Positions 5,725 through 37,935 of a stretch of 52,528 bases of DNA are shown in pieces (position 1 is the first letter of the stretch; the number at the start of each line of letters is the position of its first letter). The notes beneath the pieces are model-generated. The model saw nothing but the letters and a program-made list of their open reading frames with translations. It was not told where the DNA came from and searched no databases. The DNA is from Fibrobacterota bacterium (GTDB lineage: Bacteria > Fibrobacterota > Fibrobacteria > UBA11236): NCBI GenBank assembly GCA_019509785.1, contig JAEKLQ010000065.1, positions 1 to 52,528 on the forward strand. Reading direction: 5' to 3'. Made by a program: the position numbers and the translations under genes.

Positions 5725-5733
5725 GGGGAAACC

Positions 5734-6552
5734 ATGACAACCGCCGTTACCAATCCGACCGCCAAGAATCCCGGCGTCACCTCCGACGTCAATAACATCC
5801 TCAATCCCGCCAAGCCCGCTTCGCGTACGGTCACCGCCGACGTAAGCGGCGGCAACGTAAGCAGCGCGGTATCCTCCGCCGGGGATCAATCGGTTTTCGG
5901 CAACGCGACCAAGACGCTCGGCAAGCAGGACTTCCTCACCTTGCTGGTGACCCAGATGCGCTACCAGGATCCCTTGTCGCCCCAGGATAATACCGCGTAC
6001 GTGGCCCAGCTGGCGCAGTTCTCCCAACTGGAAGGCACGCAGAACATCAACACCTCCATCGACGATCTGAGCAAGAAGATCACCGACCTGGTGGGCAACC
6101 AGACGAACAACTCCTCGGCCATCACCAACGCTTCGGCGACCACTCTGATCGGCAAATACGCGCGCGTGAACGCGGAGGACATCGCCTACGTCTCGGGCCA
6201 GAACGGCGGGGTCACCCTCAACGTGCATACGGACGCGGGCACGGATCCGGTGCTCTCCATCCTGGATAAGGACGGGGCCATCGTGAACGTGGTGCCCCTG
6301 ACGCCCGGCAAAGAGGCCCAGGTCAACTGGGACGGTTCGAAAATGGACGGCACCAAGGCCGCGACGGGGAACTACACCTTGAAGGTGACCTCGCGCGACG
6401 GGGCCACCCAAGCGGGGTACGCTTATTTCGAGAATAAGGTCAACGGTATTTCGTACACCAAGGACGGGGTGCGGCTGGAGATCAACGGTCAGCAGATCGG
6501 CATGGATCAGGTGCTACACGTGGGCGACCAGGCCCTGGCGCCGCAGGAATGA
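5734..6552 (+). CDS. flgD: Flagellar hook assembly (capping) protein FlgD
   Basis: 272 residues. FlgD caps the growing hook and guides FlgE polymerisation. The diagnostic N-terminal block is at residues ~68-110 (DFLTLLVTQMRYQDP, QLAQFSQLEG). The C-terminal FlgD_ig domain follows around 185-235 (LTPGKEAQVNWDG, TGNYTLKVTS), then a short terminal strand. GTAGGGGGAAACC precedes the ATG. It lies between fliK and flgE, the canonical order. Confidence 0.96.
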   Translation: MTTAVTNPTAKNPGVTSDVNNILNPAKPASRTVTADVSGGNVSSAVSSAGDQSVFGNATKTLGKQDFLTLLVTQMRYQDPLSPQDNTAYVAQLAQFSQLEGTQNINTSIDDLSKKITDLVGNQTNNSSAITNASATTLIGKYARVNAEDIAYVSGQNGGVTLNVHTDAGTDPVLSILDKDGAIVNVVPLTPGKEAQVNWDGSKMDGTKAATGNYTLKVTSRDGATQAGYAYFENKVNGISYTKDGVRLEINGQQIGMDQVLHVGDQALAPQE

Positions 6553-6603
6553 TACGGAACGGCAGGGACGCCAGCGCATGAAAAGCATTCGGAGGATAAT
6601 GAT

Positions 6604-8745
6604 ATGTTAAGGTCCCTTTACGCGTCGATTTCGGGTTTGCGCAACAGCCAGATCCGCATGGACACAATCGGTAACAACATCGCCAACGTGAATACCGTCG
6701 GCTACAAGTCCTCCCGCGTTACTTTCGAAGAGTCGCTATCCCAGCTGCTCCAGGGGGCATCCCGCGGGGTGGACGGCGGGGGCGGCACCAATCCCATGCA
6801 AGTGGGACTGGGCATGAACGTCGGTTCCATAGATACCCGCTTGAGCCAGGGAAACCTGGAATCCACGGGCCTGATTACCGATCTCGCCATCGAGGGCAAG
6901 GCCTACTTCGCCGTCTCGGACGGGAACGGGACCTACTATACCCGCAATGGCGCCTTCCAGTTCGACTCGACCGGCCAGATGGTGCTACCCACCAACGGCA
7001 TGGTGCTGCAAGGCAAGATCGCCGATTCCAGCGGCGGCTTCGGTTCCACCTCCTTGATCGGCAACATCCGCGTGCCGTTCAACGACCAGGCCCCCGCCAA
7101 GGCTTCCACCGAAGTCAAGTATGCCCGCAACCTGGATTCCGATTCCATGGCCAAGGGATCGGTCCTGTATACGCAGAAGTTCCTCCATCACGCCCAGACC
7201 AACGATCTCGCGGTGGGATTGTCCGATCACGCGGGCAACAGCCTGGGCATGCAGGACGGGGACATCCTGACCTTTTCGGCCACCAACGCCGGCACGGCGG
7301 TCACGACCTTCGCCGTCACCGCCACCACCACCATGAAGAACATCACCGACGCGATGACGGCCTTTCTGCGCAGCAACGGAGTGGGCGCCACTACGGCAAC
7401 GGTGGACATGGTGGACGTGCCGGACGCGGCGCGCGGCGCCATAACCATCTACGGCAACAACGTCCCCATCAACAATTTCCAGGTGACCAGCAACCGCCCC
7501 GTCTCCGGCCCCGCGGTGACCAAGGCCTTCGCGGTTCCCACCACCATCGCCGCCGGCACCACGCGCCTCGCGGTGGTGACCGATACCATGCGGGAACCGG
7601 CCGTCGCGACCGATTCCTTGAGCCTGCTTTACGACGCCAACGGGAGCGACCTGGGCCTGGAGAACGGCGACCAGATCTCCTTCGGCGGATCCATCGGGGG
7701 CGATCCCGCGAACAACGTAACGGCCCTCTCCTACGTGGCCGGCGTGAACGGCGTGGGCGGAACCAAGATGTCCGAGGTACTCGACAAGATCAAGGACAAC
7801 TTCAAGCTCCCGGACCGCGACGGCACCATCCAGAACAACCTGTCCGTCTCCATGAACACGGCCGGCAGCGACGACAATATCCCGGACGGGTCCATCGTGA
7901 TCCGGGGCCAACCGGAAACGGCCTTCGCCATCCGCGACGTGTCCATCCGCGCCACGGACTCGAACAATACCAAACCCTCGCCCAACTTCTTCAACACCAA
8001 CATGAACTCGACGGCCTTGCGCGACGCGACGGACAGCCAAGTAGCCCAAAGCTCCATCACGGTGTACGACAACATCGGCAAGGAGCATGTCGCCACCATG
8101 GAATTCACGCCCACCAATACCCCCGGGCAATGGCTGTGGGACATTAAGCTCGCCGGCCAGGAAACCGTCATCAAGGGGCAAAAGGGCAAGCTCACCTTCG
8201 GGCAGGACGGCTCGGTCTCATCCTTCACCTTCGACGACGGCAGCTCGAGCATGGAATTCGATCCCCGCAACGGCGCCCCCGACGTGAACCTCCACTTGGG
8301 AGTCGGCGGACCGCGCGATTTCACCGGCCTCACCCAGTTCCGTTCCACGACCACGGCCACCGCGGTCTCCCAGGACGGCTATACCATGGGCCGCCTCCGC
8401 CAGATTTCCATCGGCGAGGACGGCATCATCTCGGGCTCGTTCACCAACGGCACGACCAAGAATCTCGCCCAGATCATGACCGCCGATTTCACCAATCCCG
8501 GCGGGTTGCAAAAGGTCAAGGACTCGGTGTACACCACCAGCTCCAACAGCGGCGACCCCATCTACGCCGCCGCCGGGCCTCAGAGTTCGAGCGTGATCAA
8601 GCCCGGCTCCCTGGAGCTATCCAACGTGGAGTTGGCCCAAGAGTTCACGGACATGATTACCACCCAGCGCGGCTACCAGGCCAACGCCCGCGTAATCACG
8701 GTCAGCGATAGCTTATTGGAAGAACTCGTGTCGCTGAAGAGGTAA
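6604..8745 (+). CDS. flgE: Flagellar hook protein FlgE (long form)
   Basis: 713 residues, against roughly 400-480 in most bacteria. The N-terminal rod/hook signature is intact (SLYASISGLRNSQI, NNIANVNTVGYK), as is the C-terminal one (LELSNVELAQEFTDMI, QRGYQANARVI). A FlaE-like domain lies at ~480-590. The extra length is two consecutive domains (~200-300 and ~340-460) that share a layout: GMQDGDILTFSATN against GLENGDQISFGGSI, and GAITIYG against GSIVIRG. An SD (GGAGG) sits 8 bases before the ATG. This gene ends the first hook operon; a 294-base gap follows. Confidence 0.96.
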   Translation: MLRSLYASISGLRNSQIRMDTIGNNIANVNTVGYKSSRVTFEESLSQLLQGASRGVDGGGGTNPMQVGLGMNVGSIDTRLSQGNLESTGLITDLAIEGKAYFAVSDGNGTYYTRNGAFQFDSTGQMVLPTNGMVLQGKIADSSGGFGSTSLIGNIRVPFNDQAPAKASTEVKYARNLDSDSMAKGSVLYTQKFLHHAQTNDLAVGLSDHAGNSLGMQDGDILTFSATNAGTAVTTFAVTATTTMKNITDAMTAFLRSNGVGATTATVDMVDVPDAARGAITIYGNNVPINNFQVTSNRPVSGPAVTKAFAVPTTIAAGTTRLAVVTDTMREPAVATDSLSLLYDANGSDLGLENGDQISFGGSIGGDPANNVTALSYVAGVNGVGGTKMSEVLDKIKDNFKLPDRDGTIQNNLSVSMNTAGSDDNIPDGSIVIRGQPETAFAIRDVSIRATDSNNTKPSPNFFNTNMNSTALRDATDSQVAQSSITVYDNIGKEHVATMEFTPTNTPGQWLWDIKLAGQETVIKGQKGKLTFGQDGSVSSFTFDDGSSSMEFDPRNGAPDVNLHLGVGGPRDFTGLTQFRSTTTATAVSQDGYTMGRLRQISIGEDGIISGSFTNGTTKNLAQIMTADFTNPGGLQKVKDSVYTTSSNSGDPIYAAAGPQSSSVIKPGSLELSNVELAQEFTDMITTQRGYQANARVITVSDSLLEELVSLKR

Positions 8746-8988
8746 TAGCAGGTGGACCCGCATACAGGCGAAGGGCCGGCGCCCGCGGGGAATCCCTCCG
8801 GCGCGTTTTCCCTTCCTTTTACCCCCCGCCCCGCCCCCGAGGGTTTTCCGCCCCTGGCGGACGCCCCGGCGCGCAGGCGGCCATCGCCCCGTTCCCCGGC
8901 TACCGGAGACTTCCCGCTTCCAGGGCTCGACGTTTGGTCGCTCGATTCCCGCCGGAAAACCTTGCGCGGGGCCTGGCGTTTCTGGTCA
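8746..8988. other. Non-coding GC-rich gap between hook and switch operons
   Basis: Pro/Arg-rich open frames occur here on both strands but none has a ribosome site or recognisable product. The stretch ends at the sigma-70-like promoter of flbD. motA and motB are absent from this neighbourhood, although they commonly accompany flbD and fliL. Confidence 0.5.
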
Positions 8989-9018
8989 TTGAAATCACGC
9001 GCCCTGCTAAGGTAGAAT
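8989..9018 (+). promoter_or_regulatory. Sigma-70-type promoter for the flbD-fliL-fliM operon
   Basis: TTGAAA at 8989-8994 and TAGAAT at 9013-9018 are separated by 18 bases. Each differs from consensus by a single base. The predicted start near 9025 leaves a 15-base leader before flbD. Unlike the flanking flagellar units, no -24/-12 element is visible here. Confidence 0.6.
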
Positions 9019-9039
9019 GGGAACCGGGAAACCGCGGCC

Positions 9040-9267
9040 ATGATCCAAGTAACGAAGCTCAACGGCGAAACCATCATGGTCAATGCGGACCATATTGAAA
9101 CCTTGGAGGCGCATCCCGACACCACCTTGGTGCTCCAGAACGAGAAACGGATCGTGATCAAGGATTCCGTGGCCGACGTGGTGCGCAAGATCATCGAGTA
9201 CCAGCGGAGCATCCGTACGGGACCGCGAATGGACGTGGGCGACGGCCCCGGCGAAGGGACGGTTTGA
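9040..9267 (+). CDS. flbD: FlbD family flagellar protein
   Basis: 75 residues. It matches the small FlbD family (PF06289; unrelated to the Caulobacter activator of the same name) in MIQVTKLNGETIMVNADHI and the IKDSVADVVRKIIEY segment, ending in a short acidic/Gly tail. FlbD sits beside flgE and the stator/switch genes in spirochaetes and clostridia. Its molecular role is not settled. Six bases separate it from fliL. Confidence 0.92.
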   Translation: MIQVTKLNGETIMVNADHIETLEAHPDTTLVLQNEKRIVIKDSVADVVRKIIEYQRSIRTGPRMDVGDGPGEGTV

Positions 9268-9273
9268 TCCGGC

Positions 9274-9954
9274 ATGGCTGAAGAGAAAACGAAGACGGAA
9301 GAGAAAGGCAAGGACGGGGCCGCCAAGGACGGGGCCGCCAAAGCCGCCAAGAAGCCGTTCAACAAGAAGATCCCCATCATCGCCGGCGTCATCGTGGCCG
9401 ATCTCCTCATCATGGGCGGATTGGGGATGTTCATCGTGGGCAAGCTCAAGAAGCCCGCCGAAGCCGATCCCGCCATCGAGGCGATCAAGAAGCAGGAAGA
9501 AGACGAGGCGGAAAAGAAACGGAGCCTCACCAAGATAGGCATGGTCCTGCCCAAGCCGCTGCCTTTCACGGTCAACGTACCGGGCGCTCCCGGCCAATCG
9601 CATTACCTGAAGTGCTCGATCCAGCTGGAGTGGGACGGCCTGGAACCGGCCGGCGGAGGCGGCGAAGGCAAAGGCCCCGGTCTCGACGAAACCGGCAAGG
9701 AAATCGAGAGGCGCATGCCCAAGATCACCGACATCATCATCAACATCCTGAGCGCCCAATCCTATGACGAACTGCTTAGGCCCGCGGGCAAGCAGAAGAT
9801 GAAAGAGGCCATCGTCACCGAGATCAACGCCATCCTGCCCGAGCCGCATATCGACCCCAAGGAGGAGGAGAAGCGGAAGAAGGATCCGCATGCCGAGCCG
9901 CCTCCATCGGGCAAGCTGCGTAACGCTTTTTTCACCGAGTTCATAGTCCAGTAG
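9274..9954 (+). CDS. fliL: Flagellar basal-body-associated protein FliL
   Basis: 226 residues. A Lys/Ala-rich cytoplasmic head (1-32) leads into one membrane segment (33-56, IPIIAGVIVADLLIMGGLG) and a periplasmic FliL domain. That domain includes PFTVNVPGAPGQSHYLKCSI and the helix region DIIINILSAQSYDELL, and ends in FFTEFIVQ. FliL rings stators and modulates torque. An insertion rich in Gly/Glu (~126-138) and a charged Lys/Glu segment (~192-215) lengthen it beyond the usual 150-180 residues. It precedes fliM by 17 bases. Confidence 0.93.
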   Translation: MAEEKTKTEEKGKDGAAKDGAAKAAKKPFNKKIPIIAGVIVADLLIMGGLGMFIVGKLKKPAEADPAIEAIKKQEEDEAEKKRSLTKIGMVLPKPLPFTVNVPGAPGQSHYLKCSIQLEWDGLEPAGGGGEGKGPGLDETGKEIERRMPKITDIIINILSAQSYDELLRPAGKQKMKEAIVTEINAILPEPHIDPKEEEKRKKDPHAEPPPSGKLRNAFFTEFIVQ

Positions 9955-9971
9955 CGGAACCTAAGGCCACC

Positions 9972-11003
9972 ATGAGCGACATCCTATCCCAGGAAGAGGT
10001 CGACGCCCTCCTCAACGCGGTTTCCACCGGGAGCCTGGTGCCGGACTCCGGTTCCGATAAGGCCTCCGGCGGCGATTCGTCCGGATCTTCGGATGACGAG
10101 CCGAGCGAGAAATCCGTCATCCTCTACGACTTCCGCCGCCCCGATCGCGTTTCCAAGGATCAGATGCGGACGCTGCAGAACCTGCACGACGGGTACGCGC
10201 GCCTGCTTTCCACCACGCTCAGCTCGTACCTGCGCACCCTGGTCGAGATCGACATCGTTTCGGTGGATCAGCTCACCTATTCCGAATTCATGATGTCCAT
10301 CAGCAACCCCAGCTGCATCTACGTCTTCCAGATGGAGCCGCTGGAAGGCGCCGCCATCTTCGAAGTCAATCCCAGCCTGGTGTTTTTCATCGTGGACCGC
10401 CTGTTCGGCGGGCAGGGCAAGCCCTCGGAACACAACCGCGAGCTTACCGATATCGAGAAGAACGTGCTCACCAAGATCGTGGAACGGGCGCTCCTCAACC
10501 TGAAAGAGGTCTGGGAGCACGTCGGCATCTTCACCCCCAAGATCGAGAGCTACGAGACCAATTCCCAGTTCGTGCAGATCGCCCCGCCCAACGAGACCGT
10601 CATCCTGATCTCGCTGGAAGTGCGGATGAAGCACGGCTCGGGACTGATCTCCCTTTGCTTCCCTTACATGCTGTTGGAATCGGTGATCACCAAGCTTTCG
10701 GGCGAATCGTGGATCTCGGGCCAACGCACCACCACCCAGGAAACGCGCCGGCTCATCGAAACCGAACTGGGAACCACGGAGCTAGGGGTTACGGCGGTGA
10801 TCGGCGACACCAGCCTTTCCATCCGCGATCTATTGCAATTGCAGAACGGCGACGTGGTGGTGCTCGACAAACTGGCGCAAACCGACCTGGCCGTGAAGGT
10901 CGGGGACAAACCGAAATTCCTGGGGAAGGTGGGGATCGTGGGCCGCAACAAGTGCATCCAGATCAACGCCCTCATCGACCGGGAGGTAGGGGAAGATGGC
11001 TGA
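9972..11003 (+). CDS. fliM: Flagellar motor switch protein FliM
   Basis: 343 residues. FliM forms the middle C-ring and receives CheY-P. The N-terminal CheY-binding motif is present (DILSQEEVDALLNAV). A Ser/Gly/Asp-rich linker runs to residue ~45. The CheC-like middle domain follows (YARLLSTTLSSYLR, LFFIVDRLFGGQG-type sequence). The C-terminal SpoA domain is at ~265-335 (TELGVTAVIGDTSL, LLQLQNGDVVVLDK). The gene overlaps the next one by 8 bases, implying translational coupling of the two switch proteins. Confidence 0.97.
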   Translation: MSDILSQEEVDALLNAVSTGSLVPDSGSDKASGGDSSGSSDDEPSEKSVILYDFRRPDRVSKDQMRTLQNLHDGYARLLSTTLSSYLRTLVEIDIVSVDQLTYSEFMMSISNPSCIYVFQMEPLEGAAIFEVNPSLVFFIVDRLFGGQGKPSEHNRELTDIEKNVLTKIVERALLNLKEVWEHVGIFTPKIESYETNSQFVQIAPPNETVILISLEVRMKHGSGLISLCFPYMLLESVITKLSGESWISGQRTTTQETRRLIETELGTTELGVTAVIGDTSLSIRDLLQLQNGDVVVLDKLAQTDLAVKVGDKPKFLGKVGIVGRNKCIQINALIDREVGEDG

Positions 11004-11958
11004 AGAAGGACCGCTGAGCCAGGCCGATATCGACGCGCTCACGGCGGGCCTGCTGGGCGACGCCGGCGGCTCCGCGTTCAATCCCGACGCCCTCCGGCCC
11101 GAGGCCGAGGTCATCCTGGAGCAGGCCGCGGCGGTGCTCGGGACCCTGCTCAACCGGCATGCCAGCATCGCCGTGCGCGATATCCGCGAGGCGGAAGCCC
11201 GCGCCCTCGCCGAAGGCTTGGACGAAGAGGGGCTTATCGTGCGGCTCGCCTTCGAACACGGCTTGCCGGGAGAACTTTGCCTGCTGGTGCGGAAGGAAAC
11301 CGCCGCGCGCCTTTCCGGGCTGATGATGGGCGGCGACGGGAACGCAGCGTACAAGGACGAAGACTCCGACGCGCTTAACGAATTCGGCAACCAGTTCATG
11401 GGGGCCCTTTGCACCGCCCTGGGCGCGCGCCACGGGACCACGGTTTCGAGCAAGCAGGCCCAGACCGCGCCCTTCGTTCCCGAAAACCCTCCCTTCGATT
11501 TGACCGGCGGCGCCATCGTGGATGCGGACTTGTCCCTGGAAGGCGCCCCGGACGCCCTTTTCCGGCTGCTGGTATCCTCCGATTTGGCCGCCAAACTGGG
11601 AGGCAACGGATCCTCGGGCTCGTCAGCGGCCGAGGAAAACCCGCTGGCCAGCCTGAGCGGCTTCGATACATCCTTGGCGCGGACCATGGAGGACAGCCCT
11701 CCCAACATCCAGATGCTCCTGGATATCAACCTCAACGTCACCATCGAACTGGGCCGCACCCGGCTTTCCATCCGCAAGATCCTGGAGTTGGGCCCGGGCT
11801 CCATCATCGAGCTCGATCGGCTGGCCGGCGAACCGGTGGATTTGCTGGTGAACGACAAGGTGGTAGCCAAGGGCGAAGTGGTGGTGGTGGACGAGTATTT
11901 CGGCATCCGCATCATCTCCCTGGTTTCCCCCGAGGAGAGGATTAAGCAGCTCAAATGA
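10996..11958 (+). CDS. fliN: Flagellar motor switch protein FliN/FliY type
   Basis: 320 residues, far longer than enteric FliN (~137). An N-terminal CheY-binding-like motif (LSQADIDALTAGLL) is followed by a CheC/FliY-like domain (~30-150, with LNEFGNQFMGALCTAL). The C-terminal FliN SpoA domain is at ~235-315 (LLDINLNVTIELGRT, ILELGPGSIIELDRLA, VVVDEYFGIRI). This architecture matches FliY of Bacillus and spirochaetes. CheC-type D/S-EXXXN-type phosphatase residues are partly visible (ALNEFGN), so CheY-P hydrolysis is possible but unproven. It overlaps both fliM and fliO. Confidence 0.93.
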   Translation: MAEEGPLSQADIDALTAGLLGDAGGSAFNPDALRPEAEVILEQAAAVLGTLLNRHASIAVRDIREAEARALAEGLDEEGLIVRLAFEHGLPGELCLLVRKETAARLSGLMMGGDGNAAYKDEDSDALNEFGNQFMGALCTALGARHGTTVSSKQAQTAPFVPENPPFDLTGGAIVDADLSLEGAPDALFRLLVSSDLAAKLGGNGSSGSSAAEENPLASLSGFDTSLARTMEDSPPNIQMLLDINLNVTIELGRTRLSIRKILELGPGSIIELDRLAGEPVDLLVNDKVVAKGEVVVVDEYFGIRIISLVSPEERIKQLK

Positions 11959-12617
11959 CGCGCGCCCGGGCCGTATTCGCCTTCGCCCTTCTCGGCGCAT
12001 CCCTATCCGTTCTCGCCGGCCAGCCCAGATCCTTGTACGCGGCGCCCGCGCGGGCCTCCGCGGCCAACGAGGCCGCCGAAGCTCCCGCGTCTTCCGCCTC
12101 CGAACCCTCTGCGCCGACTCCGGCCATGGAGGAGAAATTCCGCAAGCTCCAGCAGGAAATGCAGTCCAATCCCGCGGCGGCCCCCCCTACGTCCGGGGCC
12201 CAGGCGCCTGCCGCGGACGATGGCAGATCCGTAGGCGGGATCGCCCTGCAGATCCTCTTCGGCCTGGCCTTCGTGCTGCTTCTGGCGGTGGTTTCCATCC
12301 GCGTCCTCAAGCGTTTGCAGGGCCGCCTGCTCACGCGGCCGGGTCCCGGCGGGGACCTGCTGGAAGTGCTGGAAACCTGCCACCTAGGTCCACAACAAAA
12401 AGTGGTCGCCATACGCATGCATGACGAGATAAGCGTGCTGGGGGTGTCCAAGGAAGGCATCCGCCTGTTGACCGTTCTCAAGCATCCCGCGGAGGAAATC
12501 CGCCAGGCCCGCCAGGGGGGGAATCCCGCGGCCTTCTCGGACAACCTGAACAAGCTGCTGGAACGTTTCAAGAAACCGAAAAAGGTTTCCGACTTGCTCG
12601 ACGAGGCGCAGGCATGA
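11955..12617 (+). CDS. fliO: Flagellar biosynthesis protein FliO
   Basis: 220 residues. FliO is a chaperone for assembly of the FliP ring in the export gate. It has a signal-like N-terminus (1-~30), an Ala/Pro-rich periplasmic stretch, one membrane segment at 93-118 (GGIALQILFGLAFVLLLAVV) and a small cytoplasmic beta domain (LLEVLETCHLGPQQKVVAI, ISVLGVSKEGI). The last ~45 residues are helical and charged. It overlaps fliN by ATGA and fliP by ATGA. Divergent in sequence, so the call rests mainly on topology and context. Confidence 0.88.
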   Translation: MTRARAVFAFALLGASLSVLAGQPRSLYAAPARASAANEAAEAPASSASEPSAPTPAMEEKFRKLQQEMQSNPAAAPPTSGAQAPAADDGRSVGGIALQILFGLAFVLLLAVVSIRVLKRLQGRLLTRPGPGGDLLEVLETCHLGPQQKVVAIRMHDEISVLGVSKEGIRLLTVLKHPAEEIRQARQGGNPAAFSDNLNKLLERFKKPKKVSDLLDEAQA

Positions 12618-13477
12618 GGCCGGGCCTATCGGGATTATCGGAGCGAACCGCAGGGAACTTGAAGGAAATTTCCGGAACCGAAGCGGCCGCGAGCGGGAAC
12701 GATCGCGCAGCGATCGGAAAGGAGAGTGGTACGACCGAGAGCCAGCGCGGCGCCGCGCCGGTGAAGTCCGCGCGCTCATGGTGCCTGTCCGCCCAGGCCC
12801 AGGTCCTTCCCAAGCTTTCGGTCGGCTTCGACAAGGCCGCCGGGCCCCAGGACGTGGCCGTCACCCTCGAGTTGGTGGCGATGCTCACCGTTCTCAGCCT
12901 GGCGCCCTCCATCCTCATCATGATGACCTGCTTTACGCGCATCGTGGTGGTGCTGACGTTCCTCAAGCAGGCCTTGGGCACCCAGAACGCGCCGCCCAAC
13001 CAGATGCTGATGGGCCTTTCGCTGTTCCTGACCTTCTTCATCATGGGCCCCACCTTCAACCGGGTCAACGATGAGGCCTTGCAGCCCTACCTGGCCAAGA
13101 AGATCGATTACAAGGTGGCCATCGATAAGGGCATGGCGCCCATGCGCGAGTTCATGCTCAAGCAGGTGAACGAGAAGGACCTGGCCCTGATGGTTCGCAT
13201 CAGCCGCTCCCCCACCCCCAAGAACGTGGAGGAGCTGAGCAACACGACCCTCATTCCCGCCTTTTGCATCAGCGAGCTCCGCTCGTCCTTCATCATAGGG
13301 TTCCTCATCTACATCCCGTTTCTGGTCATCGACATGGTGGTTTCCTCCGTGCTCATGTCCATGGGCATGATGATGTTGCCTCCCGTGATGATCTCCACCC
13401 CTTTCAAACTCATCCTTTTCGTGCTGGTCGATGGTTGGAACCTGGTCATCCAGCAGTTGGTGACGAGCTTCCGCTGA
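12614..13477 (+). CDS. fliP: Flagellar export gate protein FliP
   Basis: 287 residues. FliP forms the core channel of the export gate with FliQ and FliR. Conserved blocks are clear: LTVLSLAPSILIMMTCFTRI, ALGTQNAPPNQMLMGLSLF, IPAFCISELRSSFIIGF, and MGMMMLPPVMISTPFK. The N-terminal ~70 residues are unusual: long, polar and charged (many Glu, Arg, Ser, Gly) instead of a cleavable signal peptide. The ATG overlaps the fliO stop. A GTG at 12761 is an alternative start but does not create a good signal sequence either. Confidence 0.95.
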   Translation: MRPGLSGLSERTAGNLKEISGTEAAASGNDRAAIGKESGTTESQRGAAPVKSARSWCLSAQAQVLPKLSVGFDKAAGPQDVAVTLELVAMLTVLSLAPSILIMMTCFTRIVVVLTFLKQALGTQNAPPNQMLMGLSLFLTFFIMGPTFNRVNDEALQPYLAKKIDYKVAIDKGMAPMREFMLKQVNEKDLALMVRISRSPTPKNVEELSNTTLIPAFCISELRSSFIIGFLIYIPFLVIDMVVSSVLMSMGMMMLPPVMISTPFKLILFVLVDGWNLVIQQLVTSFR

Positions 13478-13484
13478 GGTCCCG

Positions 13485-13754
13485 ATGAACGAAATCATGA
13501 TCATCGATCTGGGGCGCAAGACCCTGATGATGGTGCTGCTGCTGAGCGGCCCCATGCTGATCCTGTCCCTGGTGGTCGGCCTTGCCGTCAGCGTATTCCA
13601 GGCGGCCACGCAAATCTCGGAAATGACCCTGACCTTCATACCCAAGCTGGTGGCCATGGGGGCGGCCCTGCTTATCTTCCTGCCCTGGATGCTTCAGCTC
13701 TTCAAGGGGTTTTTCGTCGAGCTCCTGGACATGATCCCGACCCTGTTGCGATGA
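13485..13754 (+). CDS. fliQ: Flagellar export gate protein FliQ
   Basis: 89 residues, the standard length, with two membrane helices. Typical sequence includes LVVGLAVSVFQAATQISEMTL (first 20 shown elsewhere as the loop VFQAATQISE) and FIPKLVAMGAALLIFLPWML. It follows fliP by 7 bases with GAGG before the ATG. A peculiar heptamer-repeat hairpin separates it from fliR. Confidence 0.95.
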   Translation: MNEIMIIDLGRKTLMMVLLLSGPMLILSLVVGLAVSVFQAATQISEMTLTFIPKLVAMGAALLIFLPWMLQLFKGFFVELLDMIPTLLR

Positions 13755-13760
13755 GAAAAA

Positions 13761-13852
13761 AGGGTAAAGGGTAAAGGGTACAGGGTAAAGAGAGTGCAGA
13801 TTACACCTACTTCCGAAACCCTTAACCCTTTACCCTGTACCCTTAACCCTAA
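13761..13852. repeat. Telomere-like heptamer array forming a long inverted repeat
   Basis: Between fliQ and fliR lie four GGGTAAA/GGGTACA-type heptamers (13761-13790) and, after a 31-base spacer, five complementary ones (ACCCTTA, ACCCTTT, ACCCTGT, ACCCTTA, ACCCTAA; from ~13818 to 13852). The two arrays pair as a stem: 13774-13790 with 13828-13844 is a perfect 17 bp. It extends to 13768/13850 with one mismatch, and the loop is 37 bases. Composition differs sharply from the surrounding coding DNA. It resembles a dispersed REP/MITE-like element more than a terminator. Confidence 0.8.
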
Positions 13853-13858
13853 CAACGA

Positions 13859-14686
13859 ATGACCACCCCCATCCCTCCGAGTCCCTTCGACGGCATCCCC
13901 GCCCTCCAGGACTTCACCACCGGCCAAATCGAAATCTGGCTGCTGGTCCTCCTGCGGGTCAGCGTGCTGGTTTTCCTCATGCCCATCCTCATCACCGACG
14001 ACGTGCCGACGCGTTTCAAGGCGGCGCTTTCCTTCTTCCTCAGCATCATCCTCTTCCCCGCCCTTCCGCAAACCGCCATCGCCATTCCCGGCAACCTGGC
14101 GGCCTACATCTTCCTGGCCCTGAAGGAGATCTACATCGGGGCGGTGATGGGATTCGCCGGGACCTTCATCTTCGCGGGGCTGCGCTTCGCGGGCTCGTGG
14201 ATCGATTCCGAGACGGGGTTCAACATGACCCAGATCTTCAATCCCATGGCGGGGGAAGAAGATACCCCGCTGGCCCACCTGATCTTCATCTTGTTCATCC
14301 TGATGCTGTTGGCCGGCGGCGGGCACGCCTTCTACCTGCAAGCCATGGCGGAGTCCTTCCGGCTCATCCCGCTTACGAGCGCGCATATGGCCTCGGGGAA
14401 CATGGTCGCCGCCTTCGCCGCCATGACCGCCGAATCCTTCCTATTGGGGATGAAAACGGCGGCTCCCGTGATCGCCACCTTGTTCGTATCGTCCATCGCG
14501 TTGGCCATGATCGCGCGCATCATGCCGCAAATGAACGTTTGGATGGTCGGCATGCCCATGAAGATCGCCCTGGGGATGCTGACCCTCATGTTCGCCCTGC
14601 CCATGATGTGGCAGGCCTTCGCCAAGCAGCAAGCCGGGCTGCAAGCCTATTGGATCGGGCTCATGCGCCTGATGGGAGGCGCCTAA
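13859..14686 (+). CDS. fliR: Flagellar export gate protein FliR
   Basis: 275 residues with about five or six membrane segments. Conserved family features include LVLLRVSVLVFLMPIL, the LKEIYIGAVMGFAG helix, FAGSWIDSETGFNM and the loop FNPMAGEEDTPLAHL. It joins FliP and FliQ in the export gate. The start ATG lies just 6 bases after the heptamer repeat and has no strong ribosome site, so the repeat hairpin may influence its translation. The stop is immediately followed by the flhB start. Confidence 0.95.
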   Translation: MTTPIPPSPFDGIPALQDFTTGQIEIWLLVLLRVSVLVFLMPILITDDVPTRFKAALSFFLSIILFPALPQTAIAIPGNLAAYIFLALKEIYIGAVMGFAGTFIFAGLRFAGSWIDSETGFNMTQIFNPMAGEEDTPLAHLIFILFILMLLAGGGHAFYLQAMAESFRLIPLTSAHMASGNMVAAFAAMTAESFLLGMKTAAPVIATLFVSSIALAMIARIMPQMNVWMVGMPMKIALGMLTLMFALPMMWQAFAKQQAGLQAYWIGLMRLMGGA

Positions 14687-15754
14687 GTGGCCGCCGAAGA
14701 CGACGGGAAAACAGAAGACCCGACAGGCAAAAAGGTTTCCGAAGCGCGCAACAAGGGCATGATCGGCAGAAGCTCGGACTTCCAGTCCGCGCTGATCATG
14801 CTGGCGGGGACCTGCATGATCTGGATGTATTCGGATCGATTGGTCGCCGGCATGCGCAATACCATGGTGGAAAGCTTTATGGCCATCGGGAATTTCGAAT
14901 CCATCCCGGGGCGCTTCTTCTCCCTCGGCCAACAGGCCTTCATCGGGATCCTCAAGCTTCTTATCCCCGTGGTCGCGGGTATCACCCTGGTTTCGCTCAC
15001 CTCTAGCGTCGCGCAGGTGGGCCTCCTGTGGTCGTGGGAGCCGCTGGGGCCCCACTTCGGGAAGATCTTTTCCCTGAGCGGCCTGGGGAAGCTGTTCTCG
15101 CCCTCCTCCTTCGTGGAAATCCTCAAGAGCGTGGCCAAGATGCTCGTCATCGGATTGGTCGCCTACAAGGTGGTGGCCTCGCATTACGGGAAATACCTGA
15201 TGCTGGCGGACATGTCCTTGGGGCAATTCTGCCAGATGCTCTTCTCCGTAAGCGTGGAGATCATCATCAAGTCCGCGCTCGTGCTGCTGGCCATCGGCGT
15301 CGCCGACCTGGTTTACCAGAAGCGGAAGGTCCATAGCGAACTGAAGATGTCCAAATCCGAAGTGAAGGACGAGGCCAAGCAGTCCGAAGGCGATCCCCAC
15401 ATCAAGGGAAAGATCAAGACCCTGCGCCTGCAGATGCACCGCAATTTCATGATGAAGGAGTTGCCCAAGGCGACGGTGGTGATCACCAACCCCACCTTCA
15501 TCGCCATCGCCATCCGTTACCGCCAAGGCGAGGATCAGGCCCCGGTGGTGGTGGCCAAGGGTAAGCGCCTGATCGCCGAGCGCATCCGCGACATGGCCAG
15601 GAAGAACGATATCCCCATCGTGGAGGATAAGCCTTTGGCGCGCGGCATGTACGATCTGGCGGAGCCGGGCGAGCAGATTCCCGAGGAATTCTTTGCCGCG
15701 GTAGCGGAAATTTTGGCCTACGTGTACAGCCTGAAAGGGACTTCCGTGGGTTGA
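14687..15754 (+). CDS. flhB: Flagellar export switch protein FlhB
   Basis: 355 residues, GTG start preceded by GGGAGGCGCC. The N-terminus (KTEDPTGKKVSEARNKG), four membrane helices and the cytoplasmic FlhB-C domain are all present. The autocleavage site reads N268-P-T-F rather than the usual N-P-T-H, inside VVITNPTFIAIAIRY. Asn and Pro, which carry out the cleavage chemistry, are kept. Downstream DIPIVEDKPLARGMYD and EEFFAAVAEILAYVY are typical. The gene ends this transcription unit; flhA has its own promoter. Confidence 0.95.
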   Translation: MAAEDDGKTEDPTGKKVSEARNKGMIGRSSDFQSALIMLAGTCMIWMYSDRLVAGMRNTMVESFMAIGNFESIPGRFFSLGQQAFIGILKLLIPVVAGITLVSLTSSVAQVGLLWSWEPLGPHFGKIFSLSGLGKLFSPSSFVEILKSVAKMLVIGLVAYKVVASHYGKYLMLADMSLGQFCQMLFSVSVEIIIKSALVLLAIGVADLVYQKRKVHSELKMSKSEVKDEAKQSEGDPHIKGKIKTLRLQMHRNFMMKELPKATVVITNPTFIAIAIRYRQGEDQAPVVVAKGKRLIAERIRDMARKNDIPIVEDKPLARGMYDLAEPGEQIPEEFFAAVAEILAYVYSLKGTSVG

Positions 15755-32336: not shown

Positions 32337-32534
32337 TTATGCTTGCGGATCGAACTTCGATTCCAGCTCGAAATAGGCCTTGGCGGCCCCGCACTGGGGG
32401 CAAACCCAATCATCGGGAATGTCTTCCCAGAGGGTGCCGGGGGCGATCCCGGAATCGGGATCGCCTTGCGCTTCATCGAATACGTACATGCAAAGCATGC
32501 AGACGAAACGTCGGTGGCCGGGGGCCTGGGGCAT
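32337..32534 (-). CDS. Rubredoxin
   Basis: 65 residues from the ATG at 32532-32534; the upstream frame is not protein-like. Four iron ligands C12-x-x-C15 ([10 protein letters not shown]) and C45-x-x-C48 (DDWVCPQCG) surround the family core [11 protein letters not shown] and WEDIPDDW. It transfers single electrons in the cytoplasm, often to peroxide- or superoxide-reducing enzymes. Its redox partner is not evident here. The first knuckle has Met where Gly is usual (C15-M16), a mild oddity. Confidence 0.95.
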
Positions 32535-32560
32535 GGGAAAACTCGCTTTCTCGGAAGGCC

Positions 32561-33049
32561 TCAGGGGGCCGGGACGCGCCAGCAATCCGCCGTACCGAGT
32601 TGGGCGCTGCCCGCTGCCTTGAGGTAGAGGAAAAGCTGCATGCGGTACCCGATCATCCAGCGCATCGGGGTGAGTAAAGCCTCGGCCCGCTTCACGGTTT
32701 CGCCCCAAGGGAAGGTCATGTCCTTATTGAGCAGATCGCTTAGGGGCGCGGCGCGCAGTTCCCGTTCCACGGCATCGGCCTGCCAGGCCATGCGCGCCTT
32801 GAAATCGGAGGCCGCCATCATGGCCATCATCTCGGCGGTGGGCCGCCCGGCGGCCCAGTCCCCCGCGAGCACGCGATGGACCCCGTTATACGGGCCGTAG
32901 CTCAGGTAACGCATCAGCTCCAGGGTGGTGCGCTGGCCGGCGGAGGGCCGGTAATCGAGCCCACCCGCAGGGATCTTGCCGGCCAGGTTGATGCAGATGG
33001 CGCTTTCCTTGCGCCAGGTGGAGATATAGGACTCTACGGTGAACAACAT
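32561..33049 (-). CDS. DinB-like four-helix protein
   Basis: 162 residues, mostly helical, with a GGAAGGTATCC ribosome site. The segment [20 protein letters not shown] followed by [19 protein letters not shown] is reminiscent of the DinB/DUF1569 superfamily. Members use three His ligands to hold a metal and some are thiol-dependent transferases. Only one His (in GVHRV) is obvious, so metal binding is uncertain. Function is unknown. It lies between the GGDEF gene and rubredoxin, same strand, gaps of 24-27 bases. Confidence 0.65.
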
Positions 33050-33073: not shown

Positions 33074-34099
33074 CTATTTGACGATCACGAGTTCGGACTC
33101 GAGGTAATATTGGCCATTATAGGTGGCGATGCAATTCTTGCCGTTCTTCTTGGCGAAGTTCTTGGCCCGATTGGCCCGGTCTTCGATTTCCCGTTCGGTG
33201 AGGAAGCAATCGGAGGAGATCCAGACCGCGCCGATGGAGACGGTGGTCTTCTCGGCGATGCCGCGATAGGCGATCATGCGCAGCTTGGCCTGGAACTCCT
33301 TGATGAACGCCACGCCCATCGCCAGGCTGAAGTTGGGCAATAGCTGGATGTATTCGTCCCCGCCGTAACGGTAGCCGAAACCGTGGGAATACAAGTGCGA
33401 CTCCATCAGCTCCATGAAGCGGGGCAAGAGGTCGCGATCGATCTTGGTCTCGGTATAGCGGGTATTGAAGGACTTGAAATCGTCCACATCCAGGTACGCC
33501 ACCATCAGACCGTTGGAGCGCAACTCGCACTTCTCGCGGAAGTAGCGCAAATCCTTGACGAAAAGGGAAGGCGCCTGCAGGATGTGGAACTTCTCGTCGT
33601 AATCCCGCGGCTCCAGTTTCAGATCGGACTTGTGCATGTCTTCGACGAATTTGATGGAGAGGAATTCGGTCAGGTGCGGCACGCGCAGGGCCGGGACGGC
33701 CAGGAACCAGGGCGCGGACATGACGGCCTTGATCGGTTCGAGTTCCTTCTCGAGGTTGTCTATCAACTCGGGATGGAAGGTCTTACCCAGCGGCTCCTCG
33801 AGCTTGCTGGCCACGATGCGACGTTGGTGGATGATAAGACGCTTGAGCAAGGGCGTGAACTCGTCCGGGATTTCGTGCTGCTCTTTGATGCCCGTGTCCC
33901 CGCGCCCGGGGCCGGCGTTCCGCTTCTTCAGCAGATTGCCAAGAGTTGACAATTTCGCCAGGATGGAATCGACCTCCGAGGGGAGCTTGTATCCGATCTG
34001 GGCCTGGAGCTTCACCACGAGATTCTTTTTCAGCCAATCCGCGAAGGCATCGGAATGCTTCTCGAGCATATCGCACTGGTCATTGGAAAGAATTGGCAT
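33074..34099 (-). CDS. GGDEF-domain protein (probable diguanylate cyclase)
   Basis: 341 residues from ATG 34099, preceded by AGGAAC; an upstream GTG (34132) lacks a ribosome site. The helical N-terminal ~180 residues are unrecognised. The GGDEF domain begins near 200 (LMVAYLDVDDFKSFNTRYTE). Its active-site loop is GYRYGGDEYIQLLPN, a catalytic-type GGDE(F/Y) motif. FAKKNGKNCIATYNGQYY closes it. An RxxD inhibitory site is not obvious. It probably makes c-di-GMP, which would suit the nearby motility and HDOD genes. Confidence 0.88.
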   Translation of the reverse strand: MPILSNDQCDMLEKHSDAFADWLKKNLVVKLQAQIGYKLPSEVDSILAKLSTLGNLLKKRNAGPGRGDTGIKEQHEIPDEFTPLLKRLIIHQRRIVASKLEEPLGKTFHPELIDNLEKELEPIKAVMSAPWFLAVPALRVPHLTEFLSIKFVEDMHKSDLKLEPRDYDEKFHILQAPSLFVKDLRYFREKCELRSNGLMVAYLDVDDFKSFNTRYTETKIDRDLLPRFMELMESHLYSHGFGYRYGGDEYIQLLPNFSLAMGVAFIKEFQAKLRMIAYRGIAEKTTVSIGAVWISSDCFLTEREIEDRANRAKNFAKKNGKNCIATYNGQYYLESELVIVK

Positions 34100-34219
34100 G
34101 TTCCTATCGACCCCCGACGGAAAAGTATTCACTCACGACGCGTTTGGAACGTCTAATGCGGAAAAGGAAACGGGATCGGAATGCTTGCGCCGCGAAAACC
34201 GAAATTGTTTAATGGAAAC

Positions 34220-35057: not shown

Positions 35058-35087
35058 TTGCCAAACCAATCCGGAAAAAATTATTAT
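35058..35087 (+). promoter_or_regulatory. Sigma-70-type promoter of the amt-kinase operon
   Basis: TTGCCA (35058-35063) and TATTAT (35082-35087), each one base from consensus, are 18 bases apart. Transcription would begin near 35094, leaving a ~68-base leader that includes the second dyad. No -24/-12 site is seen, so NtrC/sigma-54 control, common for amt genes, is not supported. Confidence 0.6.
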
Positions 35088-35161: not shown

Positions 35162-36853
35162 ATGGATCTTCAGACCCAAATCGGATATCTTTGGCTGTCC
35201 ATCTGCACCGGCTTGGTGTTCTTCATGCAAGCCGGGTTCGCCTGCCTGGAGGCCGGATCGGTCCGCTCCAAGAATAGCGTCAACGTGGCCTTGAAGAACG
35301 TGGTCACCTTCATCGTCGCGGCGGCCGGCTATTACGTGATCGGATACGCCTTGCATTTCGGGAAGCCCTGGATCGCCGGTTTCGCGGGCATGCCCGTGCC
35401 CATGCTCCGTAACGTTTCCGACGAAGGGTACTTCACCTTCCTTTATCAACTCGTCTTCTGCACCACCGCCGCCACCATCGTTTCCGGCGCGGTCGCCGAG
35501 CGCATGCGCTTCCTCCCCTACATCATCGGCACCTTGGTGGTCGGCGTCTTCATCTATCCCGTTTTCGGACATTGGGCCTGGAATGATGCGGGATGGCTGC
35601 ATACCCTGGGCTACCACGATTTCGCCGGCTCTTCTGTGGTGCACATGTGCGGCGGCTTCATCGCCCTTTCCGGCATCGTCAAGATCGGGACCCGCAAGGG
35701 CCGCTTCGGCGCGGACGGCCAGGTGAACGAGATCCACGCTTCAGACGTGCCCATGGTGGCCTTGGGCGTATTCATCCTTTATTTCGGTTGGATCGGTTTC
35801 AACGGCGGATCGGCGCCCTTCGGCCCCAAAACTGCGTCCATCGTCCTCAACACCTTCCTGGGCGGCATCTTCGGAGGCATTACCTGCTTGCTGGTCGGCT
35901 GGGCCCTCAAGGGGATTTCCGGCGCCGCCACCCAGATGAACGGCATCCTGGCCGGGTTGGTGGCCATCACCGCTTCGGCGGATATCGTGACCGCGCCTTC
36001 GGCCTGCATCATCGGTTGCATCGGCGGCCTGGCGTATCTTCTCGCCGATGAGCTGCTGGTCCGCATGCGCCTGGACGATGCCGTAAGCGCGGTGCCCGTG
36101 CACGGAGCGGCCGGCCTTTCCGGCATCCTCAGCGCGGGGATCTTCTCGACCCATGCGCACCTGGAATCGGTATCCGCCCTGGTGGGACATCCCGTCACCC
36201 GCGGCGGCCTGATCCGGATCCAGACCCTCGGCGCCCTGGTCTGCGCCCTGTGGGCCTTCCTGGTCGGCTTCATCATCTGGTCCATCATCGATCGTATCTC
36301 CCGGCTCCGCGTCACCGAGGACGAAGAGTTGGTGGGTCTCAATTATTCCGAGCACAAGGTGCGCAGCCCCAGCGACGAAGTGGTGGCTTACGTGCTGGCC
36401 CGCGCGGCGGGACGCGAAGTCGAACGCCCTTACGATTTGGAAGGGGGCGAATTCGCGCGCATCGTGGCCGCCGCGCAGGGATGGGCCGATGGCTTGGCGA
36501 AAGAACGGGACGAATTGGAAAGGGCGCGCGCCAGCCTGGGCCAGGACGCCGATCGCCTCTATGAGATCATCCGCCGTTGCGAAGAGGAGAATCGCCTGCA
36601 ATCCAAGCGGCTGGAAGCCATCGCGCACAAGGTCCAGATGGTGGACGGCGAATTGCGCCGACGCGAGGGCACGCCGGGCGCCATCACCCCGTTGGCCGCG
36701 GAAGTCATGACGGGCGTGCGCGAGAAGCTGGCCGAGATGCAGGCCGGGGGCCGAAACGTCTCCTTCTATTGGGAGCAATTGCGCGGGTTGGGATCGGCCC
36801 TGTTCTCGAATACGCGCTCCCTGGAGCGGCCCACCGCGGAGGCAAGGGCATGA
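35162..36853 (+). CDS. amt: Ammonium transporter with long cytoplasmic coiled-coil extension
   Basis: 563 residues. The Amt core (~1-380) has about eleven membrane helices and both pore histidines: H161 (SSVVHMCGGFIAL) and H314 (AVPVHGAAGLSGIL). It ends with the family's RVTEDEELVGLNYSEH segment near 383-398. After that come ~165 extra residues: a helical part (DEVVAYVLARAAGREVE), a coiled coil (~445-500, ERDELERARASLGQDADRL) and a terminal helix pair. No known enzymatic output domain is visible. The gene overlaps the Ser/Thr kinase by ATGA, which suggests that the tail senses or relays ammonium status to the kinase. Confidence 0.92.
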   Translation: MDLQTQIGYLWLSICTGLVFFMQAGFACLEAGSVRSKNSVNVALKNVVTFIVAAAGYYVIGYALHFGKPWIAGFAGMPVPMLRNVSDEGYFTFLYQLVFCTTAATIVSGAVAERMRFLPYIIGTLVVGVFIYPVFGHWAWNDAGWLHTLGYHDFAGSSVVHMCGGFIALSGIVKIGTRKGRFGADGQVNEIHASDVPMVALGVFILYFGWIGFNGGSAPFGPKTASIVLNTFLGGIFGGITCLLVGWALKGISGAATQMNGILAGLVAITASADIVTAPSACIIGCIGGLAYLLADELLVRMRLDDAVSAVPVHGAAGLSGILSAGIFSTHAHLESVSALVGHPVTRGGLIRIQTLGALVCALWAFLVGFIIWSIIDRISRLRVTEDEELVGLNYSEHKVRSPSDEVVAYVLARAAGREVERPYDLEGGEFARIVAAAQGWADGLAKERDELERARASLGQDADRLYEIIRRCEEENRLQSKRLEAIAHKVQMVDGELRRREGTPGAITPLAAEVMTGVREKLAEMQAGGRNVSFYWEQLRGLGSALFSNTRSLERPTAEARA

Positions 36854-37935
36854 TCTTCGCCACCGGCAAGGTCCTGGGGCATTGCCATATCGAATCCCTC
36901 ATCGGCGAAGGCTCGTCGGCCTGGGTGTATAAAGCTTCCCACCAGACCTTGGGGATCCCGGTGGCGGTGAAGGTGCTCAAGCCCGCCCCCCAGGATTCCC
37001 TGGCTTCCCACCTGACCACCTATCGCGATCGGTTCCGCCGCGAGGCGCAACTGGCCGCTCGCATCAACCACGAAGGCATCGTGCGCGTGCTCGACTTCGG
37101 CGAGGAAATGGGCAACCTTTACCTCGTCATGGAATTCGTGAACGGCCATACCCTGTCGGAATACCTGCGTAAGGGCGGGCCGATGACGGAGGAGATGGCC
37201 CTCAGGGTCACGGCCTGGTTGGCCACGGCCTTGCACGCGGCGCATACCCAAAACATCGTCCATCGGGACGTGAAGCCCGGCAATATCCTCATCACCAAGG
37301 ACGGCTGGCTCAAGCTTTCGGACCTGGGGCTGGCCAAGGACATGGGGGTGCGCGAGCTGACCAACCTGGATACCGTGCTGGGGACGCCGTATTACATGGC
37401 TCCGGAGTCCCTAAAGCCCGGCCACGAGGTAGGCCCCCCTGCCGATCTCTATTCCCTCGGGATCATCCTGTTCGAAATGCTTACCGGCCGGCCGCCCTTT
37501 TCCGGCACCCTCAGCCAGGTCATCTCCGGCCATCTGCATGCCGAGCCATCCTATGTGGCCATGGTGGGCAGCGCCCGGGCCCCTCTCCCCGAAGGAACGG
37601 TCAAGCTGCTGAAGGCCCTTCTGGCCAAGGATCCCGCCATAAGGCCGCGTACCGGGCGGGAGGTGTCCGAACTCTGCCAAGTGCGTTTGCAGGGGGTGCA
37701 ATCCGGCTCGGCTTTCAACGCGGGCACCGAAGCGCCCCGGGAAGCGCGGCATCTGGCCGACTCCAGCACCTTCCAGCGCCTGGGGCAATTCATGGAACGC
37801 AACCTGGGCTCCAGCGTCAGCGAATACCAAGGGCGCCAGGTCATGCACACCACCGGGCGCGAGCGGATCTTGATCTGGATCCTGGCGGCCGTATTCCTGG
37901 GAGGGGCCCTTGCGGCCTACGTGGCCTCGCGGTGA
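36850..37935 (+). CDS. Tail-anchored Hanks-type Ser/Thr protein kinase
   Basis: 361 residues. The kinase domain (~10-270) has IGEGSSAWVYKA, K41 (VAVKVLK), E65 region (RREAQLA), HRD with D140, K142 and N145 (VHRDVKPGNILI), DLG at 158-160 instead of DFG, GTPYYMAPE and DLYSLGIILFEMLTGRPPF. All catalytic residues are present, so it should be active. A ~60-residue linker follows, then one C-terminal membrane helix (~341-359, LIWILAAVFLGGALAAYVA) with only two residues outside. No PASTA or other sensor is present, so any input must come from a partner, plausibly the transporter encoded upstream. Confidence 0.93.
   Translation: MIFATGKVLGHCHIESLIGEGSSAWVYKASHQTLGIPVAVKVLKPAPQDSLASHLTTYRDRFRREAQLAARINHEGIVRVLDFGEEMGNLYLVMEFVNGHTLSEYLRKGGPMTEEMALRVTAWLATALHAAHTQNIVHRDVKPGNILITKDGWLKLSDLGLAKDMGVRELTNLDTVLGTPYYMAPESLKPGHEVGPPADLYSLGIILFEMLTGRPPFSGTLSQVISGHLHAEPSYVAMVGSARAPLPEGTVKLLKALLAKDPAIRPRTGREVSELCQVRLQGVQSGSAFNAGTEAPREARHLADSSTFQRLGQFMERNLGSSVSEYQGRQVMHTTGRERILIWILAAVFLGGALAAYVASR

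Follow-up and report, generated by a model that had tools for sequence, protein, structure and literature searches.

In Ks-Amt5, a protein of the ammonium transporter (Amt) family, ammonium controls phosphorylation by a fused kinase; the response is to ammonium binding, and translocation of ammonium by the protein is inefficient even though all of the pore motifs are kept (PMC5764959). Here we describe a locus at which an Amt and a kinase are encoded by two separate but overlapping genes. It lies in a 52,528-nucleotide stretch, hereafter the window, that comprises contig JAEKLQ010000065.1 of a Fibrobacterota bacterium (GenBank assembly GCA_019509785.1). The first gene codes for an Amt with a long cytoplasmic tail, and the second for a Hanks-type serine/threonine (Ser/Thr) kinase with a C-terminal membrane anchor. 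A preliminary description of the locus had proposed an ammonium-sensing kinase system in which the tail controls the kinase according to ammonium flux. From the results presented here, the pair is probably a split ammonium receptor-kinase, with the Amt as input, its tail as transmitter and the adjacent kinase as the component that is switched. Most likely, such a pair lets the cell report outside ammonium via protein phosphorylation.

The amt gene occupies positions 35162-36853 of the plus strand and has a product of 563 amino acids, and the kinase gene follows on the same strand at 36850-37935, with a product of 361 amino acids. The genes overlap by the tetranucleotide ATGA (36850..36853), as had been described; read from the sequence, the TGA stop of amt is at 36851-36853 and the ATG of the kinase at 36850-36852. 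Upstream of amt, a sigma-70-like hexamer pair at 35058-35087 was noted as a pattern match only. The first 400 residues of the Amt (35162..36361, plus strand) constitute an 11-helix ammonium transporter domain, matched by PF00909 over residues 10-399 (E 3.5e-102) and scoring 372 bits, above the cut-off of 343, with the NCBIfam model TIGR00836. Its best matches in the PDB were Sd-Amt1 and Ks-Amt5, and structure comparison placed the fold with Amt and Mep2 structures at Z values of 42-50. Both pore histidines that had been pointed out earlier, H161 (35642..35644) and H314 (36101..36103), are present, invariant in our family alignment (A4), and aligned respectively with H171 and H326 of Ks-Amt5. 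The Twin-His pore, the Phe gate and the Trp and Ser of the selectivity filter are all intact in the window Amt.

Beyond this core, the Amt continues into a cytoplasmic tail of 163 residues (residues 401-563; 36362..36850, plus strand), in agreement with the approximately 165 extra residues reported before. Pfam detected no domain in it and no output domain in the tails of nine homologues, the output being the separate kinase. The length of the tail is nonetheless conserved, at 157-164 amino acids in the nine homologues measured, and four leucines, L466, L498, L523 and L547, are the residues after position 402 that are invariant among nine complete Amts (A4). An AlphaFold model of moderate confidence predicts a mostly helical tail, made of a helix at 403-415, a connector, a 72-residue helix at 430-501 and another helix at 510-551. 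The long helix (36449..36664; pLDDT about 60-74) is a probable coiled coil. The succession of short helix, connector and long helix at residues 403-450 (36368..36511) may represent a degenerate HAMP-like segment. The HAMP model PF00672 matched two of ten homologous tails weakly (best E 0.0017) and did not match that of the window, and when the tail profile was compared directly with the part of the fused Amts that contains HAMP, the match was not significant (E 0.27). In the fused Amt relatives, HAMP is found at the corresponding place (best E 1.3e-6). As modeled, the layout of the tail resembles a HAMP segment that runs into a coiled coil, and this was kept as a possibility.

The downstream gene (36850..37935, plus strand) encodes a complete Hanks-type kinase with a predicted C-terminal membrane helix, just as the preliminary description had it. 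PF00069 matched with E 2.7e-55, the fold is that of PknB (Z 33 against the Mycobacterium tuberculosis PknB), and the Pfam range of the catalytic domain is residues 13-267 (36886..37650). The active-site residues K41, E65, HRD (138-140), N145, D158 and P185-E186 were kept in all 11 aligned kinase homologues. The catalytic domain is followed by a linker, a juxtamembrane module and a hydrophobic helix, after which only a few residues remain. The juxtamembrane module (residues 305-342; 37762..37875) was predicted, in part at low confidence, to form a helix and a beta hairpin; H333, E338 and R339 are invariant in it (alignments A1/A2), and the motif of the paired kinases reads F..L...SE..G..v.HTT..ER...W. 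The anchor spans about residues 340-361 (37867..37932), appears as a hydrophobic helix at 336-360 in the model, and has a hydrophobic counterpart in all homologues. With the NCBIfam model of PASTA kinases, the protein scored 248.8 bits (E 1.4e-73), far under the cut-off of 450, and an extracytoplasmic sensor region is absent; thus, it does not belong to the PASTA type (PknB/Stk1). The juxtamembrane module is the best candidate for a docking or switching element.

To date, the pair has been found at 12 loci (designated by L numbers) in 11 genomes (G numbers) of two phyla, always in the order amt, then kinase, and with a stop/start overlap in all 12. The junction is ATGA in seven of them (the window, L126, L153, L154, L155, L156 and L157), GTGA in L152 and L195, TTGA in L129, and TGATG in L127 and L128, where the overlap is of one base provided that the ATG is the start; in L195 the overlap was deduced from its two reading frames. 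Within the genus, four of the six genomes searched carry the pair, at five loci (the window genome, G002, G003, and G005 with two), and the remaining two (G001 and G004) have neither a tailed Amt nor the kinase. Identities of the genus loci to the window run parallel in the two proteins: 79, 71, 71 and 56% for the Amt, and 80, 72, 73 and 58% for the kinase. The most distant of these (56% and 58%) is L129, at 6302-9072 of contig C319 in G005, a genome that also has a closer copy, with neighbors different from those of L129. The pair in the second phylum came to light when genome contigs were scanned with the Amt: L034, from a metagenome-assembled genome labeled 'bacterium isolate Bin_7_3', shows this gene order, an ATGA junction and a homologous kinase.

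For a wider search, juxtamembrane profiles were built from alignment A1 and then from the fuller alignment A2; weak, partial matches that covered only the second half of the profile (E 0.0002-0.007) were set aside. In the rest of the phylum of the window (168 genomes in all), no strong match was found. Of the 23 genomes in the class to which L034 belongs, part of the Planctomycetota, seven gave strong matches, at about 40% identity; one of these, G426, matched weakly at first, and strongly with the fuller profile. The class was assigned to Planctomycetota because a phylum-wide search centered on L048, from a Phycisphaerae bacterium, returned the same genomes. In this class, the Amt match ran through the tail in G168, G436, G318, G426 and G485, and in G333 it did so in two pieces with a broken frame, whereas all other Amts matched only to about residue 400-412. 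These six genomes, together with G303, in which the contig starts inside the Amt tail so that only the tail end is visible, are exactly the genomes that bear the kinase. It is to be noted that the split Amt gene of G333 (L152, at about 6130-6400 of contig C75), which lies over two frames, may reflect either a sequencing error or real breakage. Over all loci, the tally is twelve kinases to ten intact tailed Amts, plus one whose frame is broken and one truncated by the end of its contig.

In the genomes searched, every strong juxtamembrane match has a tailed Amt before it and every complete tailed Amt has a kinase, and in about 1,300 genomes the motif had no strong match outside the Amt-paired kinases. 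The preliminary description would have been contradicted by a pair restricted to very close relatives, or by a kinase next to an amt without the tail; instead, the pair extends to the Planctomycetota class, and the tail is kept, within the narrow length range given above, wherever the kinase adjoins amt. The two proteins have also been inherited together: pairwise divergence of the kinase correlated with that of the tail (r = 0.98) and of the core (r = 0.96), the pairs not being independent of one another. As the arrangement recurs at 12 loci in two phyla, with an overlap each time, it is more than chance. Two further forms of organization were considered and rejected. A single-chain fusion of Amt and kinase was not seen among these loci; a 756-residue frame in G436 merely runs in from upstream, and the kinase starts at an internal ATG. 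A conserved third gene was dismissed, since the two phyla have different outer neighbors, as do the two copies within G005.

The affiliation of the Amt was examined in a tree of 123 rows and a careful tree of 59 rows. The nine paired Amts included group together as a single clade (support 100/100), which sits inside a larger clade with Ks-Amt5, Sd-Amt1, and Amts fused to MCP, histidine kinase, SpoIIE-type PP2C, CheA-like and GGDEF-EAL domains; we take the output domain of Sd-Amt1 to be a diguanylate cyclase. The branch between the plain Amts and the 25 rows of sensor and paired Amts had support of 98/93; as sequences were chosen for their similarity to the query, the trees show placement, and not the composition of the whole family. 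The Amt-PII fusions fall in a separate clade. The earlier statement that Amt fusions with histidine kinases or GGDEF proteins are known is borne out, and can now be extended to the MCP, PP2C and CheA-like outputs. Amt-MCP fusions were seen in three phyla, namely in L036, L038 and L040 (Bacillaceae), L042, L050 and L060 (Gammaproteobacteria) and L039 (Spirochaetaceae); the MCP domain was identified by Pfam in L036, L039, L042 and L050, and by similarity in L038, L040 and L060. Adjoining the signaling clade in the trees are Amts of Crenothrix and Sphaerotilus (L059, L092 and L102, at about 4900-7100), each followed by a gene for an uncharacterized protein, and these proteins share a C-terminal end among all three (ELVHLxY.GLCE.LGPI.AD...).

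In the Amt family the C-terminus is cytoplasmic, and the catalytic domain of the kinase is predicted to be cytoplasmic as well, provided that its C-terminal helix crosses the membrane a single time. The tail and the kinase would thus come together on the cytoplasmic side of the membrane. We propose that an Amt of this signaling branch serves, wholly or partly, as an ammonium-binding input, and that its occupancy changes the tail, in which short helix, connector and coiled coil would together act as the transmitter. The overlapping genes should keep production of Amt and kinase in step, and the single C-terminal helix would anchor the kinase beside the Amt. The tail may then act on the juxtamembrane module or the catalytic domain, and the kinase, once switched, would phosphorylate cytoplasmic proteins on Ser or Thr. 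Contact between tail and kinase, control by ammonium, the direction of the signal and the nature of the substrates are what we infer in this scheme. Considering the conservation of the pair and its tail, the phylogeny of the Amt and a motif seen only in Amt-paired kinases, the sensing system of the preliminary description is well supported as far as inference from sequence reaches; its control 'according to ammonium flux' is unsupported, since binding is what Ks-Amt5, the relative studied best in this clade, responds to (PMC5764959).

Several observations weigh against this scheme. The distribution of the pair is narrow, none having been found in the samples of Spirochaetota (0 of 326 genomes, in the phylum of a Spirochaetales record) and Chloroflexota (0 of 400, in that of an Anaerolineae record), nor in the five genomes from the phylum of a Myxococcales record; as these samples had no positive control, their zero counts say little. 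The tail is less conserved, at a mean divergence of 0.66, than the core (0.41) or the kinase (0.50). At the ion site of Ks-Amt5 (Q24, E31, N47, D50, T51, T109 and T112), the window Amt keeps the Q, E, N and T109 residues, and has Thr for D50, Phe for T51 and Ser for T112; the site has no diagnostic value, since plain Amts of the same branch also possess most of these residues. The site and a long loop 5 were in fact tried as sensor markers and rejected, both being common to many plain Amts of the branch and hence unable to separate a sensor from a transporter. Moreover, the pore-plug residues Y30 and F34 of Ks-Amt5 are Leu and Ser in the window Amt, so that transport may persist.

In the main rival explanation, the signal runs in reverse: the tethered kinase would phosphorylate the Amt tail to open or close an ordinary transporter, comparable to Npr1 and Mep2 in fungi, where Mep2 activity is under phosphorylation control (PMC4852598). 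The intact pore and the missing plug residues agree with such a role, and the exclusive pairing would equally fit a dedicated regulator. Nonetheless, the tails of the nine complete Amts (A4) do not have a single invariant Ser or Thr, which speaks against it, the Amt is placed among sensors and not among plain Amts, and the kinase has no other recognizable input; overall, we regard a reversed signal as unlikely. Less probable still is a transceptor that combines ammonium uptake with kinase signaling by transport or channel occupancy, which corresponds to the flux idea. Every pore residue is retained, the plug residues are not seen, and filamentation signaling by fungal Mep2 is reported to be tied to the translocation mechanism (PMC7048316). 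However, retained motifs are no proof of transport, since Ks-Amt5, in the same clade, has all of them and translocates poorly (PMC5764959), and the genome has two further Amts for uptake. The latter are AmtB-type genes in tandem, directly downstream of the urea ABC transporter genes urtABCDE (L130, in G000:C28:5000-20000, at 5323-14853, minus strand), a natural place for assimilation, and their two proteins are available for uptake; both genes have long open frames ahead of the Amt domain.

Two other explanations were considered. The kinase could serve another target and simply be co-transcribed with amt, with no functional contact between the two, as two-gene operons of unrelated function do occur; yet the 12 exclusive loci in two phyla with differing outer neighbors, and the matched divergence of the two proteins (r 0.96-0.98, from pairs that are not independent), make mere co-transcription very improbable, and the kinase-specific juxtamembrane motif and the constant tail length also argue against it. 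Alternatively, the kinase could be a phage-defense kinase similar to PD-T4-6 that lies beside a membrane protein, and indeed the PADLOC models of PD-T4-6 score well on it (best E 1.3e-75). These models, however, score Hanks kinases generally, the PASTA-kinase model scores about equally (1.4e-73), the flanking genes that were examined included none recognized as a defense gene, and the membrane protein beside the kinase is an Amt; a defense role is therefore hardly credible. The split receptor-kinase, in which the Amt informs the kinase, is thus the reading that we prefer.

Among the neighboring genes, a GGDEF-domain protein is encoded near the pair in the window (33074-34132, minus strand) and likewise in two further members of the genus (L127:9806-10819 and L128:9868-10926). 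The window protein matches PF00990 (E 4e-11) and has a GGDEY motif; Pfam searches covered the copies of the window and L127, and the L128 copy was recognized by similarity. This neighbor is possibly a further output of the pair, or it may be mere shared synteny. Also in the window, the C-terminal half of a 123-residue frame (32337-32708, minus strand) is a rubredoxin domain (PF00301, E 2.5e-22).

To our knowledge, it is not known for most bacterial Ser/Thr kinases what stimulates them, and many lack an obvious input. If the proposed scheme is true, a bacterial Ser/Thr kinase gains a defined external ligand, ammonium, and Ser/Thr phosphorylation joins the known outputs of Amt sensors. Sensor Amts could then act via a separate protein, which would also make the coupling step more accessible to study than it is in a fusion. 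Because the ligand class of the input partner is known, what switches the kinase is directly testable with ammonium.

Five known systems or groups come closest to the pair. Ks-Amt5 (Kuenenia stuttgartiensis; PDB 6eu6, 'Sensor Amt Protein'; PMC5764959) is likewise an Amt of this clade that acts as an ammonium sensor with a kinase output, and is 36% identical to the window Amt over the aligned core; its kinase, however, is a histidine kinase fused in one chain, unlike the separate, membrane-anchored Ser/Thr kinase of the window, and its Asp50 and pore plug have no equivalent here. The closest solved relative is Sd-Amt1 of Shewanella denitrificans (PDB 8qj3, 8qj4 and 8qpf; 43% identity, Z 50), deposited as a receptor in ON and OFF states, but it is a single chain, about 650 residues long, that has a C-terminal part of its own, and the titles of these entries mention no Ser/Thr kinase partner. 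The other fused signaling Amts share the clade and a cytoplasmic C-terminal output, reached in several via HAMP; in all of these the output belongs to the same polypeptide, and there was no Ser/Thr kinase among the fusions found. PknB-type receptor kinases have the same catalytic fold and one membrane helix C-terminal of it, whereas the window kinase has no extracytoplasmic sensor, PASTA or other, and its chain ends at or soon after the helix. For the GlnH-GlnX-PknG system of actinobacteria, it has been proposed that a Ser/Thr kinase is informed of a nitrogen compound outside the cell by a separate membrane protein (PMC6069109, PMC9769921); there the signal is an amino acid received via a periplasmic binding protein, PknG is another kinase, and no Amt takes part. 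Searches of open-licence papers, from a limited range of journals, turned up no pairing of an Amt receptor with a separate Hanks-type kinase. Amt sensors with fused outputs, and Ser/Thr kinases under a separate nitrogen-reporting membrane protein, are already known; on balance, we lean toward the view that the pair adds a new two-protein design to them, in which an Amt-family receptor would control a separate, tail-anchored Hanks-type kinase through its coiled-coil tail and the juxtamembrane module.

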